Below are positions 26,438 through 59,530 of a stretch of DNA of 64,000 nt, piece by piece. Made by a program: the position numbers and the translations under genes. Numbering within the stretch: the first letter of the stretch is position 1; each line of letters starts with the position of its first letter. This DNA comes from Methylococcus mesophilus. GTDB lineage: Bacteria > Pseudomonadota > Gammaproteobacteria > Methylococcales > Methylococcaceae. The DNA is taken from contig NZ_CP110921.1 in NCBI RefSeq assembly GCF_026247885.1, forward strand, positions 3,231,501 through 3,295,500, read 5' to 3'. Under the pieces are notes generated by a model. That model was not told where the DNA came from, did not search any database, and worked only from the letters and a program-made list of their open reading frames with translations.

Positions 26438-27700
26438 TTAAACCGCGGTCGCCTCGGAGGCGAGGGCATCGAACGCGAGCCCATCCGCTTCGCGGGTGGC
26501 TTGTTTCCCCGTCCAATCCTCCCATCTACGCACGATGACATCGACGTATTTCGGGTCCAGCTCGATCAGCCGCGCCACCCGTCCCGACTTCTCCGCGGCG
26601 ATCAGCGTGGTGCCCGAACCGCCGAAGGGGTCGAGCACAAGGTCGCCGGGCCGACTGGAGTTGCGGAGGGCTCGCTCCACCAGTTCCACCGGCTTCATGG
26701 TCGGGTGCAGATCGTTCCGGGCCGGCTTGTTGATCTGCCACACATCGCCTTGGTCACGATCGCCGCACCAATGGCGCTGGGCGCCTGCGGCCCAACCGTA
26801 CAGGATCGGTTCGTACTGGTGCTGGTAATCTGCACGGCCCAGGGTAAACGTGTTCTTGGCCCAGATGATGAACGTCGACCAGTGGCCGCCGGCGGTACGG
26901 AAGGCAGACTGCAGCGTATCGAGTTCGCTGGAGGACATAGCGATGTAGACGGCGCCCTTGCAGTGGGCGAGCATCGGAGTCAGCGCCGCCAGCAGAAAGT
27001 CCGAGAAGCCCTCGCCCAGGTTGTCGTTCAGGATCGCGCGATGCTTGCCGCGCAGCTTGTCCTTGGCCGAGTTGGCGTAGTTCACATTGTACGGCGGGTC
27101 GGTGAACACCATGTCCACAGATTCGCCGGCAAGGAGGCGGTCGTAGTGCTCCGCCAGGGTGGCGTCTCCGCACAGCAGCCGATGGGAGCCCAGGATCCAG
27201 ACATCGCCCGGCCGAGAGACCGGTTGCACCGGCACGTCGGGCGCCACGTCGTCCTCGGTCTGGCCCTCGGTGACTGATGCCTCGTCGGCCAAAAGGTCCA
27301 GCAAGGCGTCGGCATCGAAGCCGGTCAAGCCCAGATCGAAGTCTTCGTCCTGCAGGGCCGTCAGCTCGAGCTTGAGCAAGGACTCATCCCAGCCTGCGTT
27401 CTCGGCGATGCGGTTGTCGGCGATCACCAGGGCGCGGCGCTGGGTGGGGCTCAGGTGATCCAGCACGATCACCGGCACCTGGGACAGGCCCAGCTGGCGG
27501 GCCGCCGCCCAGCGCCCGTGCCCGGCCACGATCACCCCGTCCGCGCCCGCCAGGATCGGCGCGGTGAAGCCGAACTCGGCGATGGAGGCGGCGATCTGAG
27601 CGATCTGCGCGTCCGAGTGGGTGCGGGCATTGCATGCGTAAGGCAGCAACTTGTCGACCGGCCAGGACTCGACCCGGTCGGCTACCCAGGAATGACGCAT
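26438..27700 (-). CDS. ParB-domain DNA methyltransferase fusion (first)
   Basis: A 420-residue protein from ATG 27700. Residues about 1-110 are a ParB/Srx-like domain (PVDKLLPYACNARTHSD, then GVIVAGHGRWAAARQLGLSQVPVI). The second part is a beta-class adenine methyltransferase with motif IV DPPYNV near residue 208 and motif I DPFGGSGTT near 365, the order used by CcrM-like enzymes. Phages use such orphan enzymes to guard against restriction or mark replication. The longer upstream frame runs antisense through the phd gene, so the ATG at 27700 is preferred. Confidence 0.88.
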   Translation of the reverse strand: MRHSWVADRVESWPVDKLLPYACNARTHSDAQIAQIAASIAEFGFTAPILAGADGVIVAGHGRWAAARQLGLSQVPVIVLDHLSPTQRRALVIADNRIAENAGWDESLLKLELTALQDEDFDLGLTGFDADALLDLLADEASVTEGQTEDDVAPDVPVQPVSRPGDVWILGSHRLLCGDATLAEHYDRLLAGESVDMVFTDPPYNVNYANSAKDKLRGKHRAILNDNLGEGFSDFLLAALTPMLAHCKGAVYIAMSSSELDTLQSAFRTAGGHWSTFIIWAKNTFTLGRADYQHQYEPILYGWAAGAQRHWCGDRDQGDVWQINKPARNDLHPTMKPVELVERALRNSSRPGDLVLDPFGGSGTTLIAAEKSGRVARLIELDPKYVDVIVRRWEDWTGKQATREADGLAFDALASEATAV

Positions 27701-27742
27701 GCGTTGTACATTGAATGCATTTTGCCGGAAGTGCTTAACGCC

Positions 27743-28024
27743 ATGACGCTCGAAATCACCTACAGCCGGGCCCGCGAGCAACTCGAATCGCTGATGGATC
27801 GCACCGTCGATGATTGTGAGGTGATCATCATCCGCCGCCGTTCCGGTGGGGCCGTCGCCATGATTGCGGCCGATGAGCTGGAAAGCCTGATGGAAACCGC
27901 GCATCTGCTGCGTTCGCCCCGGAACGCCGAGCGGCTGCTGGCGGCGCTGGCGCGCGCCCGGGCCGGTGAAGTCGAACCGACCCCGCTCCCGGCGTTGAAG
28001 CAGGCGCTCGGATTTGAAAAATGA
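27743..28024 (+). CDS. Phd/YefM-family antitoxin
   Basis: A 93-residue protein with the Phd/YefM fold: TYSRAREQLESLMDRTVDD then VIIIRRRSGGAVAMIAADELESLMETAHLL. These bind operator DNA through the N-terminus and a toxin (Doc or YoeB) through the C-terminus. No YoeB or Doc gene follows; the next gene is a different RelE-type toxin with its own promoter. It may pair with that toxin or be an orphan. It is divergent from the methyltransferase, whose start is 42 bases away, so the intergenic segment may be autoregulated. Confidence 0.8.
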   Translation: MTLEITYSRAREQLESLMDRTVDDCEVIIIRRRSGGAVAMIAADELESLMETAHLLRSPRNAERLLAALARARAGEVEPTPLPALKQALGFEK

Positions 28025-28697: not shown

Positions 28698-30092
28698 TCA
28701 TCCAGCCGTCGTCTGTATCGCTTGCCGCTGGGAGGCAACCGCTTCCCAAGTTTCGCCGGTGTCTAGCAGTGTCACCGGGATGGCCGGAAAACTCTGACGG
28801 AAACGCAGGATCGCGACATCCACATACCCCGGCGCGATCTCCACCGCATACCCCCGGCGCCCGGTGCGCTCCGCCGCCAGCAGGCTGGTCCCCGAACCGC
28901 CAAAAGGTTCATATACCGGATCGTCCGGATCCGAGTAGGCGGTCAGGACAAACTCCGGCAGCGCCACGGGAAACACCGCCGGGTGGTCGATGTCCCGTCC
29001 GATCTTGCCCTTGTGGCGCATGATGCGGATGACGGAATCGGGGATCCGGCGGTCCTGGGTCGGTTGACCCGCATGGGTCCAACCGCCGACCTCACCGTCC
29101 TTGCCACGCAGGGCGGTGGAACTGCCGTCCTGGCGGAGGTGCGTCTCCTGACCTGCGAACTTGCAGGCCACGGTCTTGTTGGGCTTGCGGCTCTGACGGT
29201 TGAAGTGGAACACGAACTCGAAGCTCGGCGCCAAGCGTCCCGCCCAGTCGCCCGGCATCCCCGGCCCCTGGTCCCAGACGTACCAGCCGAAACGGCGCCA
29301 GCCCTGGGTCCGCATCCACCCCAGCCAGGGATCCCAGTAGGGGATCACCTCGTTGTCGCGATGGATCAGCCCCAGATTCACCAACACCTGGGCATCGTCG
29401 GTCAGCGGTAACTGGGCGAACACGCCGCGCATCAGGCCGTCCCAGTCGCCGATGCCGCCGGAGGTGTAGTCGCGCTGATTGTCATACGGAGGCGAGGTAA
29501 AGCAGAGACGGGCCAACTCGCCGCCCATCAACGCCGCGACGACGTCCGGGTCCGAGGCATCGCCGCAGATCAACCGATGTCGGCCCAACTGCCAGACATC
29601 GCCGGGACGCGACACAGGAGTCGCCGGCGGCTCGGGGACATCATCGGCCGTCTCGGGTTCGCCGTCTTCGGCGTCATCCGAATCTTCGGTATCGATCGAC
29701 AGCAGAGCTTCCAGCTCATCATCGTTAAACCCCGTCAGCGCCAAGTCGAACCCGGCACCGGACAACTCGGCCAGTTCCAGCGCCAGCAACTCCTCGTCCC
29801 AGCCGGCATCGAGAGCCAGGCGGTTGTCGGCCAGCACATAGGCCCGCTTCTGGGCCGGCGAGAGGTGACCCAGTTCGATCACCGGCACCTCCGCCAGCCC
29901 CAGGCTGCGGGCGGCCGCCAGGCGGCCGTGCCCGGCGATGATCCCCTGTGCCCCGTCCACCAGGATCGGGTTGGTCCAGCCGAATTCCACGATGCTGGCC
30001 GCGATCTTCGCCACCTGATCCACGCTGTGGGTGCGCGGATTGCGGGCATAAGGGATCAACTTTTCCAGCGGACGGTATTCGACCTGCAACAT
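28698..30092 (-). CDS. ParB-domain DNA methyltransferase fusion (second)
   Basis: A 464-residue protein from ATG 30092. The ParB-like part (PLEKLIPYARNPRTHSVDQ, GIIAGHGRLAAARSLGL) is clearly paralogous to the first fusion. The methyltransferase part has motif IV TSPPYDN near residue 205 and motif I EPFGGSGTS near 408. TSPPY instead of DPPY suggests a different base or target than the first enzyme. A longer N-terminus to 30395 would run over the repeat array and is rejected. Confidence 0.87.
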   Translation of the reverse strand: MLQVEYRPLEKLIPYARNPRTHSVDQVAKIAASIVEFGWTNPILVDGAQGIIAGHGRLAAARSLGLAEVPVIELGHLSPAQKRAYVLADNRLALDAGWDEELLALELAELSGAGFDLALTGFNDDELEALLSIDTEDSDDAEDGEPETADDVPEPPATPVSRPGDVWQLGRHRLICGDASDPDVVAALMGGELARLCFTSPPYDNQRDYTSGGIGDWDGLMRGVFAQLPLTDDAQVLVNLGLIHRDNEVIPYWDPWLGWMRTQGWRRFGWYVWDQGPGMPGDWAGRLAPSFEFVFHFNRQSRKPNKTVACKFAGQETHLRQDGSSTALRGKDGEVGGWTHAGQPTQDRRIPDSVIRIMRHKGKIGRDIDHPAVFPVALPEFVLTAYSDPDDPVYEPFGGSGTSLLAAERTGRRGYAVEIAPGYVDVAILRFRQSFPAIPVTLLDTGETWEAVASQRQAIQTTAG

Positions 30093-30183
30093 GAAGGGTT
30101 CGTAGCAATCCCAAAAAAGTACGGCCCGGCGCAGGGTCCGATCGGAACCTGCAACGAGCCGTAGACACGAGGTAACGCAGCAA

Positions 30184-30217
30184 CAAAAAACCCGCCGACG
30201 GCGAACCGGGGCGGGTC
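30184..30217 (-). terminator. Rho-independent terminator, minus strand
   Basis: On the minus strand ACCCGCC and GGCGGGT pair around a 13-base loop and are followed by a run of five T. It would stop transcripts arriving from the HigA-like/TumEA region before the second ParB-methyltransferase. Confidence 0.6.
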
Positions 30218-30243
30218 TTGGGAAATGAGGTAAGCACCAAGGG

Positions 30244-30408
30244 TGCAAACCTCGATGGCAGCACCCGGTTTGCAGTGTGGGGTTTGCACCCAGGTTTGCA
30301 CTGGGGGCGTTGGGCGCTCCCGTGTGAGCGCCAGCACCGGCGCGGCCTCCAGGGTGGTGCGCTCCGGCTGGGGGTGCAAACCGCAAACCCTGCAAACCTT
30401 GGTTTGCA
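30244..30408. repeat. Array of eight TGCAAACC sites in both orientations
   Basis: TGCAAACC or its complement GGTTTGCA begins at 30244, 30267, 30281, 30293, 30375, 30391 and 30401, with one copy carrying a single mismatch at 30382. Copies at 30391 and 30401 form the perfect palindrome TGCAAACCTTGGTTTGCA. The two clusters are separated by about 75 bases. The array lies in a 600-base gene-free interval, as expected for a replication-initiator or repressor binding region. Confidence 0.75.
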
Positions 30409-31134: not shown

Positions 31135-31485
31135 TTAGGCTGCAACGATCCTGAACTCCGTTCCCTTGGCGATGGGGCGGACATGATTTTTTTCACGCTT
31201 CATCTCTACGAGGCCGTAATGAGACATCGTCTTCAGCGTTCGAGAAAGGTTGCCGGGCTTCCTGCCCGTCGCTGCCGCAAGAGACGTGATCGATTCAGGT
31301 TTTGTTTCTCTGATCACCTTGAGCAGTGCCCTGTTTTCATCGCTCAGGACCTCGGCAAGCGATCTCATCGAAGTGAACCATATCTTGGGATCCCCCGCTT
31401 TGGGCTTGAGTTCGCCCCGCGCGATGGCCAGCAGACGCTTGCGAATGTCCTCTTGCGGCATGATGCCTATCACAATGGTTTTCAT
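31135..31485 (-). CDS. Winged-HTH antitoxin (TumA/HVO_A0114-like)
   Basis: A 116-residue protein with a wHTH (ALLKVIRETKPESITSLAAATGRKPGNLSRTLKTMSHYGLVEMKR, residues about 54-98). Such MarR-like proteins follow DUF6516/TumE toxins as antitoxins. Its ATG overlaps the toxin stop (ATGA), supporting coordinated expression. Confidence 0.75.
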   Translation of the reverse strand: MKTIVIGIMPQEDIRKRLLAIARGELKPKAGDPKIWFTSMRSLAEVLSDENRALLKVIRETKPESITSLAAATGRKPGNLSRTLKTMSHYGLVEMKREKNHVRPIAKGTEFRIVAA

Positions 31486-31853
31486 CGCTTTTTTACCTCC
31501 AGCAGAACTTGGTCCACTTCAGAAAAGAAGTCAGCCAACAATTGATGTGCATCCTTGAATTCATACGGAACGCCCGGGTCTCTGGCATGCCGGTGCATGT
31601 GGTCGAAGGTTAAACGTCGACCCGCATACTTGAACTTCTTCGGCGGCTTTACGGCGTGGGCATTGTCATAACCGAGTATTCTTTTGCCGTAGGGCTCATG
31701 CAGTGTCAGGGAGTAGCGGATGCCATGAGGTACATCGGGCGTTGGCGCAACCTGATAAGCCTCGATCTTGACCCAATATCCGCTGCCCTGATCAATGATC
31801 TGGTCCTGTAAATCCAGGAGGGTTTCAATGCCAGGGTCCACTTCCATGCACAT
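31482..31853 (-). CDS. TumE-like (DUF6516) toxin
   Basis: A 123-residue protein with a TumE/DUF6516 pattern: YWVKIEAYQVAPTPDVPHGIRYSLTLHEPYGKRILGYDNAH followed by basic FKYAGRRLTFDHMHRH and an acidic C-terminal helix LLADFFSEVDQVL. The predicted partner is the wHTH protein immediately downstream. ATG at 31853 or 31847 could be the start; the promoter's -10 ends directly before 31853, favouring a leaderless message from 31847. Confidence 0.75.
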   Translation of the reverse strand: MCMEVDPGIETLLDLQDQIIDQGSGYWVKIEAYQVAPTPDVPHGIRYSLTLHEPYGKRILGYDNAHAVKPPKKFKYAGRRLTFDHMHRHARDPGVPYEFKDAHQLLADFFSEVDQVLLEVKKR

Positions 31854-32266: not shown

Positions 32267-32468
32267 GGCGGGACTCCCGTCGGCCGTACAGCCGCTCGCC
32301 GATCTGCCGGATCAACTCCCGCTCGACGAAATCCAGCCGCTCGTCGATCAGATGGACCACCAGGATGCGCTGCTCGCGCCAGCCCTCGCGCTTGACCGCT
32401 TCGAGGTCGGTGACCTGCGGCTGCAGCTTTCCCAGCGGGCAACGGGGATTAGGGTTCGGTCCTCTCAT
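32259..32468 (-). CDS. Small basic helical phage protein
   Basis: A 69-residue protein from ATG 32468, overlapping the RuvC-like stop by ATGA. The second half, ILVVHLIDERLDFVERELIRQIGERLYGRRESRRG, is an amphipathic helix. No family recognised. Tight coupling on both sides supports it as a real operon member. Confidence 0.55.
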   Translation of the reverse strand: MRGPNPNPRCPLGKLQPQVTDLEAVKREGWREQRILVVHLIDERLDFVERELIRQIGERLYGRRESRRG

Positions 32469-33244
32469 ACGCCCACCCCTTGGGTCATCCGTGCCCAGTG
32501 CAGCAAAGCCAGGGCGTCGGCTTCGTTGTCGTCCACCGGATCGAAGCCCAGTGACCGCATCGCAGCGATCATGGCGGCCTTGTTGGCATTGCCCTGGCCG
32601 GTCGCGTGTTTCTTGATCGTTCCCACCGGTACGCCTTGATAGGGAACCCCGTGGTGCTCGCACCAAGCGGTGAGGTGGGCCAGGAACCCGCCATAGGCGT
32701 GGGCGGCATCGACGCCGGCATGGCGGCGGACCTCCTCGAAATAGACCGCATCCAGATCGCCGGCGGCTTGCTTGATTTCGGTCAGCCAGCGCTTGAAACG
32801 CAGGAAGCGCATCCCGCCGCCTTCGAAGCGTTGGGGCTTGAAGGTTTCGGAGCCGCTGATGACCGTACCGTCCCGCTGATGCAGAGCCCAGCCGGTGTGA
32901 GTACCCAGATCGAGGGCCAGCAGCGTGGTCCGGTCACCTTCGTCGTTATCTCCGAGCCCAGAGAGGCCCCTACGGGACGGGGAGAGGGCGCGTAGCGCGC
33001 CTCTCCCCCGTAGGGGGAGGGAGTCTCCGCCATCTGGAATTCCATAAATTGTTTCGTATAAACAATCGGTTGCGCCAGATGGCGAGTTGGCGGCGCTGCC
33101 ATCTGGAAATTCCGCCATCTGGACCGTAAGCGATTGAAGGATATCGATTCTCAGATGGCGGACGTTTGCCATCTGGATCCAGATGGCAGATTTCAAGGGG
33201 CAGATGGCGGAGCGTCTGCCATCTGGAATTAGGGTCGTCGTCAT
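32465..33244 (-). CDS. RuvC-like Holliday-junction resolvase with repeat-filled N-terminus
   Basis: The frame begins with ATG overlapping the primase stop (ATGA at 33241-33244) and encodes 259 residues. The RuvC core starts near residue 100: TTLLALDLGTHTGWAL gives the first catalytic Asp, YFEEVRRHAG the Glu, and DDNEADALALLHWA the C-terminal acidic pair. The first 95 residues are unlike RuvC and coincide with the GCCATCTG array and a strong hairpin. No ATG, GTG or TTG occurs between that block and the core, so the repeats are probably translated. It should process branched phage DNA. Confidence 0.75.
   Translation of the reverse strand: MTTTLIPDGRRSAICPLKSAIWIQMANVRHLRIDILQSLTVQMAEFPDGSAANSPSGATDCLYETIYGIPDGGDSLPLRGRGALRALSPSRRGLSGLGDNDEGDRTTLLALDLGTHTGWALHQRDGTVISGSETFKPQRFEGGGMRFLRFKRWLTEIKQAAGDLDAVYFEEVRRHAGVDAAHAYGGFLAHLTAWCEHHGVPYQGVPVGTIKKHATGQGNANKAAMIAAMRSLGFDPVDDNEADALALLHWARMTQGVGV
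32965..33020. repeat. GC-rich REP-like hairpins beside the GCCATCTG array
   Basis: GGGGAGAGG and CCTCTCCCC flank GCGCGTAGCGCG-type sequence (about 32978-33008), and CCCCCGTAGGGGG follows directly, making two strong stems. The block sits between the array and the RuvC core inside one open frame. It looks like an intergenic REP-type element that has become coding. Confidence 0.55.
33029..33225. repeat. Nine GCCATCTG sites in both orientations
   Basis: The 8-mer GCCATCTG or CAGATGGC begins at 33029, 33076, 33098, 33114, 33152, 33168, 33180, 33201 and 33218. The wider motif is GCCATCTGGA, and the pair at 33168-33187 is the perfect palindrome GCCATCTGGATCCAGATGGC. The array lies inside the 5' end of the RuvC-like gene, just after the primase-helicase gene. 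Dense iteron-like sites next to replication genes suggest an origin or a regulator-binding region. Confidence 0.8.
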
Positions 33245-35394
33245 GGATGGTCCTCGTCGTGGTAGAGCCAGATCGTGGCGTCTTCGACCGGCAGCAAGGC
33301 GCCGGTCTGGGGGCATTTGTAGTGGGAGGGGTAGACCGAAACCGGCCACATCGGGATTTCTCCGGTGTCAGGATCCGGGGGACCTTCCCGCCGTAGCACC
33401 ATGCCCTCGACGCATTGGTAGCCGAACTTGCTGCGGTGTAACGGGGGAAGTCCGTAGTCCTCGGCGTTACGGAAGAACTTGATGTAACCTTGAGTGGCGA
33501 GTACCGAGAGCCGCTCGCGGATCGTGCGTTCCGCGCCCAATCCGGCGCGACCCTCGAAGGCTTCGGCGAACTGGGTGGCGCTGTAGCAGCGCCCATCCGC
33601 CGCCTCGTCGAACAGTATCTGCAGGATCACGTCATGCTTGCGCCGGCGCTCGGCATCGAGGCGTTCGGCGTAGTCCTGCAGGACCCGTCGCCCGGTGTTC
33701 GCCACCTCGCGCCAAGTACCGTTGAACTTGTCGACGGACTTCACCGGGAGCGCCGCGCCATTGCGCAGCTCGAAGATGAGTTGGCGGGTGGTTTGGGTCT
33801 CGTCCGGCCGGAACAGCAGCATCCCGGTGCTGTAGTAGCCCCTGAGGCTGCCGGCTCCGGCCAGGGCCTGGAACGGATCCTCCTCGAAGGGTTTCTTGCC
33901 GAGCTTCTTGGTGTGGTGCACCAGCACGAGGCCGGCGTCCGGGTTGACTGCCGTGCGCAGCTGTTCCACCCGCTGCGACAGGAAGAACAGCATCGCGCCG
34001 TTATCGTTCTCGCCCCCGGCCTCGCCGCCGTCGAACACATTGCGGATCGGATCGATGGCGATCAGATCGGGCGGAGTGTTGCCGAACGCCTGAACAATGG
34101 CCGGGATCACCTGGGCCAGGCCGGCCTCGTCCAGGACCAGACGCAGTTGCGGGGTGGCGACGAAGTTCACCCGCGCCTCGGATATCCGGTGCGACGGTAA
34201 GGGGATTCCCTTCACCCGTTCCCGCAGGTAGTGGTACTGCACCTCCGCCTGCAGATAGAACACCCGCAAGGGACGCGGCGGTGTCATGCCGAGGAAGCTG
34301 GCCCCCGCCGCCATGTGCATCAGCCAGGCCAGCAGGAAGTCGCTCTTGCCGACCTTGGGCGCCCCGCCGAACACCAAGAGGCCGCCGGGCGTGAGTACGC
34401 GCGGCGCAATCAGGTCCGGCGGGACGGGAGAGTCATCATCGAGCAAGGCGCCCAAGGTATGCGTCGGCAATGCCGGGGAGGCGGCCTTGATGACCCGGCG
34501 CTCGCCGTGGGTGATGAACGCGACGCAATCGAAGTCCTCGGACACGGCATCGGCTGCGTCCCACTTGTCGGGCTTGTCCGTCGGCGGCACGAGGATGGCC
34601 ACCGACGCCGCGCCTGCCGCCATGCAGGCACGGGCGGCGTTCTCCGCGTAGTCCCAGCCCGGCGCATCCCGATCCGGCCAGATCAGCACGGCTTTGCCCC
34701 GGAGCGGCGACCAGTCGGTCTTGTCGATCGGCGCCTTGGCCCCGTTCATCGCCGTGGTGGCGGCCACACCCTGATGGACCAGCGCGTCGGCGCACCGTTC
34801 GCCCTCGACCAGCACCACCTCCTTCGCCTGGGCGATCGCCGGCAAGTTGTAGAGCGGACGCGGGTCGGGGGCGCGCCACAGGCGGGCGCGCACGTCCCAC
34901 GGCCGGAATTCCTTGCCGGTGGGCGGGTCGTAGCGGTAGACGCAGGCGATCAGCGTGCCGTCCGCCGCGACGTAGTCCCACTTCGCCGTGGCGGGGCCGA
35001 GCCGATCCACCGGGGCTTTCTCCCGCAGCGGTGTCGGTTCGACCCGCGCCGTACCCAACAGCTGACCGGCCAGAGCCATCACCTCGGCGAATTGGCCGTG
35101 CGTCTCCAGGCCGTGGACAGCGGCGATCAAGGCGAAGAGATCCCCGCCCTCGCCGGTCGCATGGTCGTACCACAACCCGGCCTTTTCGCCCGAAAGCGCC
35201 ACTTCCAGGCTGTCGCCCGGATCGCCCTGGACGTTGCCGATCGCGAAGGCACCCCCGCGCACCTTGCCGGCCGGGAACAAGGTCTTCAGCACCGACGGCA
35301 ACCGGGCCAGCAAATCGGCGCGCAGGGCTTCGCGCTGGAGCGTCAGATCGGCGGGGTTGGCAGGCCTGGGCAGCGCGTCGTTGAAGTCAAGCAA
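33241..35394 (-). CDS. Primase-helicase (Toprim plus RepA-like ATPase)
   Basis: A 717-residue replication protein with a TTG start at 35394, 8 bases after GAAGGAG; an in-frame stop just upstream excludes a longer start. A Toprim segment is visible around residues 190-275 (EVVLVEGERCADAL, later KAVLIWPDRDAPG). A RepA/DnaB-like ATPase follows, with GGAPKVGKSDFL near residue 346 and a downstream DLIAIDPIRNVFDGGE acidic motif near 440. A C-terminal winged helix is likely (RTIRERLSVLATQGYIKF). It is expected to prime and unwind phage DNA. No N-terminal zinc motif is seen. Confidence 0.85.
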   Translation of the reverse strand: MLDFNDALPRPANPADLTLQREALRADLLARLPSVLKTLFPAGKVRGGAFAIGNVQGDPGDSLEVALSGEKAGLWYDHATGEGGDLFALIAAVHGLETHGQFAEVMALAGQLLGTARVEPTPLREKAPVDRLGPATAKWDYVAADGTLIACVYRYDPPTGKEFRPWDVRARLWRAPDPRPLYNLPAIAQAKEVVLVEGERCADALVHQGVAATTAMNGAKAPIDKTDWSPLRGKAVLIWPDRDAPGWDYAENAARACMAAGAASVAILVPPTDKPDKWDAADAVSEDFDCVAFITHGERRVIKAASPALPTHTLGALLDDDSPVPPDLIAPRVLTPGGLLVFGGAPKVGKSDFLLAWLMHMAAGASFLGMTPPRPLRVFYLQAEVQYHYLRERVKGIPLPSHRISEARVNFVATPQLRLVLDEAGLAQVIPAIVQAFGNTPPDLIAIDPIRNVFDGGEAGGENDNGAMLFFLSQRVEQLRTAVNPDAGLVLVHHTKKLGKKPFEEDPFQALAGAGSLRGYYSTGMLLFRPDETQTTRQLIFELRNGAALPVKSVDKFNGTWREVANTGRRVLQDYAERLDAERRRKHDVILQILFDEAADGRCYSATQFAEAFEGRAGLGAERTIRERLSVLATQGYIKFFRNAEDYGLPPLHRSKFGYQCVEGMVLRREGPPDPDTGEIPMWPVSVYPSHYKCPQTGALLPVEDATIWLYHDEDHP

Positions 35395-59174: not shown

Positions 59175-59530
59175 TGGTGGAGGCGGCGGGAATTGAACCC
59201 GCGTCCGCAAATCCTCTGCCATCGGCTCTACATGCGTATCCTCTCTATTGATTTAACCGGACGCTACCCGAGAGGCAGGGAAGACGGACGGCGATTCCGT
59301 TAGGTTTTAGCGCTTCGGCTCCGGACAGGCTTCAGCGCGAGCTTACAATTGGGTTACCCCCAACCAGCCGCTTGTAAGCGAGCTGCTGATCAGAGGCCGG
59401 CCGGCTTAAGCGGCCAGTGCGTAAACGTCGTCGTTGGCGTTTATTTGGTTTGCAGATTGATTTACGAGGTTATCTGCACCTCGGCATGCACCTCAGGTTT
59501 CGCGATCCACGTCGAAGCCATGTCGCCCCC
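59175..59530 (-). ncRNA. ssrA: Transfer-messenger RNA
   Basis: On the minus strand the gene starts GGGGGCGACATGG, contains the tag frame GCC AAC GAC GAC GTT TAC GCA CTG GCC GCT TAA at 59438-59406 (ANDDVYALAA) and ends with a tRNA-like TTCAATTCCCGCCGCCTCC ACCA at 59175. tmRNA rescues stalled ribosomes with SmpB and tags the peptides for ClpXP. The 3' end is a known integration hotspot, and here it is next to the Zorya island. Confidence 0.95.

Follow-up and report, generated by a model that had tools for sequence, protein, structure and literature searches.

A repeat array behind a phage primase-helicase gene as a probable iteron-type replication origin whose word changes together with a predicted winged helix

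What purpose is served by nine copies of one eight-letter word packed into 197 bases of phage coding DNA? The question is raised by a prophage in a 64,000-nucleotide stretch of the Methylococcus mesophilus genome (contig NZ_CP110921.1, positions 3,231,501 to 3,295,500; called the window below, with coordinates counted from its first base), in which the words lie directly after the gene of a primase-helicase and within the open 5′ end of a RuvC-like gene (Table 1). We consider it probable that this array is an iteron-type replication origin of a temperate phage, bound by the winged helix of the primase-helicase, and that the origin addresses of related phages change together with this winged helix. 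Computation supports the array itself, the conservation of its place and in part of its layout, the replacement of one word by another, the covariation of this word with the winged helix, and the presence of hairpins and of an open frame.

The nine exact words are found in both orientations between 33029 and 33225, four on the plus strand as CAGATGGC and five as GCCATCTG. The exact count agrees with the original prediction, made from the letters of the window, as far as the eight-letter core is concerned, whereas the ten-letter GCCATCTGGA, under which the array had been described as nine-copy, is present only six times. The array was also placed correctly between the primase-helicase and the RuvC core, and its 20-base palindrome is indeed found at 33168-33187, occurring only once in the 4.34-Mb genome. 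The number of repeats is beyond chance, as had been claimed: CCATCTGG occurs 11 times in the window versus 2.90 expected, and 0 of 100 shuffles reached 11. Five further copies of the 8-mer are present in the remainder of the window, outside the array. The array is not scattered genome-wide, as the search for pairs of like-oriented CCAGATGGC within 60 bases returned only the window array and a second prophage at 1.936 Mb. This second prophage (locus L009, G000:C1:1926001-1946000) matches approximately 20 kb of the window (22659-43090) with 97–98% identity over the matched stretches, and its array contains eight exact words; a substitution in one array word disrupts the 20-base palindrome there. 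Near the array, at 34-36 kb, the cumulative GC skew of the window dips to a shallow local minimum; this gives no evidence either way about an origin, because the swing is small and the end of the window lies lower than this minimum.

The relatives were gathered by RuvC and helicase similarity, with the best 80 of each scan taken. From 549 loci, 501 had a complete helicase C-terminus, and 287 distinct (non-identical) loci in which 250 bases or more follow the helicase stop remained, many of them still close relatives. At least five copies of one 7-mer are located right after the helicase stop in 251 of the 287, while one shuffle per locus reaches at most three; repeats close to the gene of a putative initiator, as expected for iteron-type origins, are thus a common feature of this group. 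The word follows the form [CA]AG[AT][AT][TG][GCT][CAG] in 208 of the 251 arrays. In 65 nonredundant loci the median array (330 bases) holds 6 exact words, against a density of 0.017 per 330 bases in the remainder of these loci.

The word itself is not kept. CAGATGGC is found in the window, CAGTTGGC (L011) and AAGTTGGC (L012) in relatives of the same genus, and others elsewhere, including CAGATTGC, CAGAATCC, and AAGTTGGG (the word of one locus, L336, was set by hand to AAGTTGGC). Between relatives the word differs in nearly all of its copies and the layout is largely kept. In the window the positions and orientations of the words are 19> 36< 57< 69> 85< 123> 139> 161< 208>, and in L011 they are 16> 33< 54< 66> 82< 120> 135> 158< 205> plus one extra word, some copies carrying one mismatch. 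Three loci, L278, L322, and L294, illustrate this at close range: their ATPase domains are 94% identical, their array spacers are 61–63% identical (the two printed alignments are gap-free), and seven word positions are identical across all three, yet L278 contains CAGTTGGC (11 words, 11 exact), L322 contains CAGTTTGC (11 words, 10 exact and one with a mismatch), and L294 contains CAGATTGC (10 words, 8 exact and two with a mismatch). The alternation of word orientations is partly kept over wider distances. On the tree of the 94 representatives introduced below, at least 46 word changes are needed. The conservation in related prophages, which had been proposed as a check, is consequently seen for the place, the repetition, and much of the layout (251/287), but not for the exact word. 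Two further observations concern the words. In L101 (Methylococcus sp. UBA6136; its printed sequence is the same as that of L164), the first 190 bases after the helicase stop hold a mixed array of CAGATGGC, CAGTTGGC, CAGTTTGC, and CAGATGGA, which could be a transitional or decaying state. Quite different words, of the AGGAGTTA, CTTTGTCA or CTCTGTCA, and AACTATTC types, accompany unusual recognition helices in L213, L262, L235, L252, and L097.

Which protein could read such an array? The gene that ends at the array encodes, in a single 717-aa open reading frame (ORF), a primase-like part, a helicase, and a predicted winged helix (residue numbers below follow this ORF). The frame matches phrog_239 DNA primase/helicase (E 3.1e-62), AAA_25 at aa 319-499 (E 4.9e-20), NF005477 over aa 1-305 only, and, weakly, Toprim (E 0.26); the profile search gave no match to D5_N or TIGR01613, so a helicase region of the P4-family/D5 kind is not seen here. 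The last 150 residues are predicted to form a winged helix. HTH_65 matches them with E 8.4e-4, which is weaker than the curated cut-off, and their AlphaFold2 model (pLDDT 87) has helices at model residues 22-32, 39-46, and 55-67, followed by strands. Residue 607 corresponds to model residue 40, in helix 2 (39-46), and residues 622, 623, and 626 to model residues 55, 56, and 59, at the start of the predicted recognition helix.

These four residues covary with the word. From the 208 arrays with canonical words, 202 remained after short or ambiguous proteins had been dropped, and they were reduced to 94 representatives; 335 variable columns of the C-terminal 430 residues were then ranked by mutual information with each word position, minus the shuffled mean. 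The top column is T607 for word position 4, R626 for position 5, E622 for position 6, and R623 for position 8, all of them within the winged helix; for position 1 it is column 700. The residue–base relations are specific. Arg623 is found in 54/54 words in which G7 is not followed by G8, Asp623 in 8/8 G7G8 words, and Ser or Thr623 in 24/24 words ending with C7C8 or T7C8; in the other 8 words (G8 after C7 or T7) residue 623 is Asp (4), Ala (3), or Ser (1). Arg626 is present in 43/43 words with G6, and in 31 of the 51 words with T6 the residue is Asn, Ala, His, or Val. In the classic pairings of DNA recognition, Arg goes with guanine and Asn with adenine, which fits R626 for G6 and N626 for the A opposite T6. 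At 55–85% ATPase identity, pairs of relatives that have a word in common agree in more of the four contact residues than pairs with different words (at 80–85%, 3.93 versus 2.77 of 4). At 85–100% identity same-word and different-word pairs hardly differ (3.96 versus 3.79 and 3.93 versus 3.88), perhaps because close relatives often differ at position 1 only. The associations were also followed with independent pairs on a tree of the ATPase domain alone. On average, agreement was observed in 4.3/6 pairs for G6/R626, 5.0/5 for A5/626, 3.5/4 for G8/D623, 2.5/4 for G7/R or D623, and 1.9/3 for G7C8/R623; opposite-direction pairs averaged 0.0, and two swapped (mismatched) controls gave 0.7/6 and 1.0 versus 0.9 of 3, that is, little or no association. 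These data suggest that the word is read by the helicase's own winged helix, the predicted reader.

The DNA just past the array contains two adjacent hairpins, at 33005-33017 and 32983-33004. The hairpin set comprised 27 relatives chosen from 61 regions (32 were aligned first and five dropped for bad alignment; the other 29 stayed outside the test). In it, 93.1% of the cells are paired, double changes occur at 8/14 pairs, the covariation score exceeds 500/500 shuffles, and slid versions of the pairing fall to 38–56% paired. The first hairpin competes with a longer stem in the fold, as its strand 33009-33016 alternatively pairs with 32967-32974. The same DNA is open in the RuvC frame. From the ATG at 33244-33242, which overlaps the helicase stop, the frame runs through the array and the C-rich hairpin region to the RuvC core (phrog_159 RuvC-like resolvase, aa 96-256, E 6.2e-33), and the last in-frame start codon ahead of this core lies inside the array, within one word; the earlier reading of an open frame with no start codon between array and core is correct on both counts. 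RuvC follows the array in 190/192 loci and is open from the overlapping ATG in 136/190, counts that include duplicates. In the 65 nonredundant loci, which like the covariation set are representatives, the ATGA overlap is found in 52, no stop interrupts the RuvC frame within the array in 47 (the other two frames are open in 8 and 5), and a RuvC frame start overlaps the helicase stop in 39. Stop codons intervene and the in-frame start comes later in L265, L087, L089, and L127. The best reading is that 39 of the 65 lineages would translate the array as an N-terminal RuvC extension, and that such translation is common but not required, because the frame is open in most loci, while stops intervene in others. 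In two loci, L337 and L144, extra array words lie downstream, from approximately 220–240 bases past the helicase stop, and the RuvC start is later.

The place between primase and RuvC is also occupied by repeats in a sister lineage. The protein of AcaML1 (L015) has a primase N-terminus in common with the window protein and is a P4-family primase-helicase (TIGR01613, E 3.4e-110); 27 other loci, among L045-L096, match the C-terminal part of the AcaML1 primase. In loci of this type, inspection by eye reveals TGAC-containing words flanking an alternating CG-rich tract, and the words differ between phages. The origin reading is favored here because repeated words occupy the same spot with either helicase type.

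Binding, loading, priming, and origin activity, as well as the reasons for the change of address, are inferences from these data, and the following sequence of events is proposed. The words would act as iterons, bound by the winged helix at the C-terminus of the primase-helicase encoded just upstream, and many bound copies would collect several primase-helicase molecules at the array. The helicase part could then be loaded near the array, with the AT-rich gap and the hairpins directly behind the array as possible sites, and synthesis would be begun by the N-terminal primase part, perhaps at the hairpins. The origin would thus sit just past its own initiator gene and, in most lineages examined, be translated as a tolerated N-terminal extension of RuvC. 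When the base preference of the winged helix shifts, all or nearly all copies of the word would shift too, giving lineage-specific addresses. Recombination of the gene end together with the array, drift with coevolution, and escape from elements that target or exploit the origin are candidate reasons for such a change. A broader proposal has, in our estimation, even chances of being right: that a large group of temperate phages possesses a rewritable origin address, varying at five or more positions and rewritten many times in step with two to four winged-helix residues, with the place and much of the layout of the array kept and the array being, in the majority of the lineages examined, also translated as part of RuvC. 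Rivals or parasites that target or exploit one another's origins may be the driving force behind such private addresses.

Several results weigh against this reading. Fewer than five copies are found in 36/287 loci, and 43/251 arrays have words outside the canonical pattern, which were left out of the covariation; neither group is explained by it. Column 668, which lies outside the winged helix, ranks first for word position 7, ahead of 623, and at position 1 the winged helix does not exceed RuvC. Arg626 is retained in 20/51 T6 words, all 20 without Arg623, and therefore the code depends on context; N607 is kept in 10/10 cases with CAGATTGC despite A at position 4. In the tree tests the pairs are few and none reaches 0.05 at the median, and for A4/607 only 3.0/7 pairs agree, with 3.9 not differing. 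Foldseek retrieved no significant solved structure (best E 0.24). One of the five hairpin measures, that of further pair types, is not above shuffles, as 475/500 were as high. Finally, no comparable local AT-rich peak is present in the mean of 38 relatives, so the AT-rich element is not general.

The first alternative is that the words, once bound by the winged helix, control the replication operon at the transcriptional or translational level rather than start replication. The covariation identifies the reader of the array and not the consequence of binding, and a terminator or attenuator function is conceivable for the hairpins behind the array. However, the array does not stand at the head of the gene run; it is found within a series of same-strand genes, past the helicase stop, and shares bases with the next ORF. 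In addition, the protein proposed to read it is a primase-helicase, and nine or more sites over 200 bases resemble an origin more than an operator. An operator array is thus rather unlikely. The original prediction had named an array, for an origin or for regulation, that is embedded in coding DNA. This is supported by the array at this place (251/287), its covariation with the winged helix, and the frame through it (47/65); an origin is the function we propose, and a regulatory role retains a small share of the probability.

A second alternative holds that the winged-helix gene end and the array merely travel together by recombination, and that the covariation reflects shared ancestry without recognition. 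The two lie within approximately 300 bases, and some pairs of loci differ far more in the winged helix than in the ATPase domain, e.g., L053/L067, with an ATPase 0.90 identical and a winged helix 0.62 identical. Against this, the RuvC core, which is close by on the other side of the array, and the helicase tail score lower than the winged helix at positions 4–8, with column 668 at position 7 in the set of 94 representatives as an exception. The winged helix exceeds the ATPase domain, helicase tail, and RuvC at these positions in 59 representatives, and the ATPase domain, RuvC, and DUF6362 in the 75 representatives with all genes present. As the best columns fall at recognition-helix positions and the residue–base pairs recur on separate branches, linkage only is very improbable. 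The same comparison bears on a third alternative, in which another reader, the DUF6362 protein or a ParB-like methylase, uses the array in partition, incompatibility, or regulation. Genes for a DUF6362 protein and for two ParB_N-methylases are indeed nearby, but in the 75 representatives the best DUF6362 column is below the best winged-helix column at every tested word position (at position 5, 0.12 versus 0.49), and a different reader has an equally slight chance of being correct. The least credible alternative is a mobile or selfish palindromic repeat of the REP kind, inserted in frame and serving no phage function: such an element would fit the short words, which occur in both orientations, and the C-rich hairpins of an open frame, but paired words occur elsewhere in the genome only in the sister prophage and the palindrome once, instead of in many dispersed copies, the arrays sit at one place in 251/287 relatives, and the word covaries with a protein domain.

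The coordinates of the features are collected in Table 1. Profile matches show that the minus strand of the window carries a phage replication block, with a Sak4-like annealing protein, a phrog_2300 protein, a DNA helicase, a Cas4-like exonuclease, the primase-helicase, the RuvC-like resolvase, the DUF6362 protein, a TumE-like ORF, and two DNA methylases with ParB_N domains. The TumE toxin match (E 8.4e-9) is in an ORF at 31482-31853. The methylase genes are located at 26438-27904 and 28698-30395; part of each is additionally similar, with approximately 75% identity, to a different site in the second prophage, as if the two genes shared a duplicated part. A tmRNA gene (59175-59530, tag ANDDVYALAA), in the same window as the prophage, is a possible attachment site.

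Table 1. Features of the array and its neighborhood, in window coordinates (aa, amino acids)
Feature	Coordinates	Strand	Description or basis
Primase-helicase gene, 717-aa ORF, TTG start as listed	33241..35394	-	N-terminal primase part, AAA_25 (RepA/RecA-like) helicase, C-terminal winged helix (predicted)
Coding DNA of the predicted winged-helix domain (aa 590-655), proposed array reader	33430..33627	-	HTH_65, AlphaFold2 model, covarying columns 607, 622, 623, 626
Predicted recognition helix, aa 622-634 (E622, R623, R626)	33493..33531	-	model residues 55-67; covariation
ATGA, helicase stop overlapping ATG of the extended RuvC ORF	33241..33244	-	sequence
RuvC-like ORF	32465..33244	-	array and hairpins would be read as N-terminal extension of ~100 aa, then RuvC core
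Array word 1	33218..33225	-	exact 8-mer
Array word 2	33201..33208	+	exact 8-mer
Array word 3	33180..33187	+	right half of 20-bp palindrome 33168-33187
Array word 4	33168..33175	-	left half of 20-bp palindrome
Array word 5	33152..33159	+	exact 8-mer
Array word 6	33114..33121	-	exact 8-mer
Array word 7	33098..33105	-	exact 8-mer
Array word 8	33076..33083	+	exact 8-mer
Array word 9	33029..33036	-	AT-rich stretch between word 8 and word 9
AT-rich stretch between words 8 and 9	33036..33065	.	73% A+T over 30 bases
Two adjacent hairpins after the array	32983..33017	-	fold; covariation in 27 chosen relatives

How a binding protein and its many dispersed sites can switch specificity together is an old question, and nature seems to have repeated that experiment in related replicons, with the layout largely preserved and the reader fused to the enzyme. 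If the proposal is true, it would provide a natural amino-acid-to-base code that can be read off, together with a system of private addresses for origins. The set of arrays yields residue–base rules of a winged helix that can be put to the test; it also points to a likely origin in many prophages and viral contigs that are still uncharacterized, and compatibility groups of phages may have their basis here. In the literature searched, which consisted of open-licence papers, no prior description of this origin was found, and origin of replication, iteron, RuvC, and primase do not appear as terms in the main text of a 2026 paper on Methylococcus prophages (PMC12924245).

Individual parts of the proposed mechanism are known from other systems. 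Phage P4 alpha is a fused helicase-primase (PMC7145576), one protein that, according to the relevant passages of a second source, binds the origin repeats via a winged-helix domain, unwinds, and primes (PMC4234260). On this description the likeness is close, as here too a fused primase-helicase with a predicted winged helix is encoded beside repeats. The helicase type of P4 alpha differs from AAA_25. The window helicase is of the AAA_25 type, and it is the sister lineage of AcaML1 that carries the P4-family primase-helicase. In replicons of the pRN1 and BIP-1 type, as characterized in those passages, the origin is directly 3′ of the gene for a fused primase-helicase-winged-helix protein and contains a large stem-loop; pRN1 is without iterons and has an archaeo-eukaryotic primase and a superfamily 3 helicase (PMC4234260). 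The position of the putative origin 3′ of the fused protein gene and the stem-loop are thus shared, and what differs, by this account, is that the window array has many iterons together with hairpins. The oriV of RSF1010/IncQ plasmids combines iterons, the RepA helicase, a primase, and hairpin start sites, with RepA, RepB′, and RepC as separate proteins. That three separate polypeptides perform these tasks there is stated in the same portion of the source on pRN1 (PMC4234260); here they would be united in one protein of 717 aa.

Precedents also exist for the change of address. In geminiviruses, eukaryotic ssDNA viruses with rolling-circle replication, the iteron sequence is described, in the passages concerned, as varying between viruses and correlating with residues of the DNA-binding region of the initiator (Rep), the iteron-related domain, and the iteron arrangement as conserved within clades (PMC10653810). 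As far as this description extends, the correlation of word and initiator and the kept arrangement are alike, and the rolling-circle replication of eukaryotic ssDNA viruses is different. Geminivirus Rep has a different DNA-binding fold, and these viruses have far fewer iterons. For PLE and ICP1, the RepA_N origin and the initiator DNA-binding domain are reported to covary as a module, and an origin-directed nuclease to cut one address (PMC8263062). Two module types are said to be exchanged there, in contrast to the many words of related layout, one or few letters apart, that are found here. In the λ ori the iterons are located, according to the relevant section, within the coding sequence of the phage replication gene itself (PMC11447400), whereas the array described here falls into the 5′ end of the following gene, RuvC, or, in some lineages, precedes that gene. 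What differs from all these precedents is the union of an AAA_25 helicase, a primase, and a predicted winged helix in one protein, the placement of the putative origin in the RuvC 5′ end, and the many small changes of a whole-array address.
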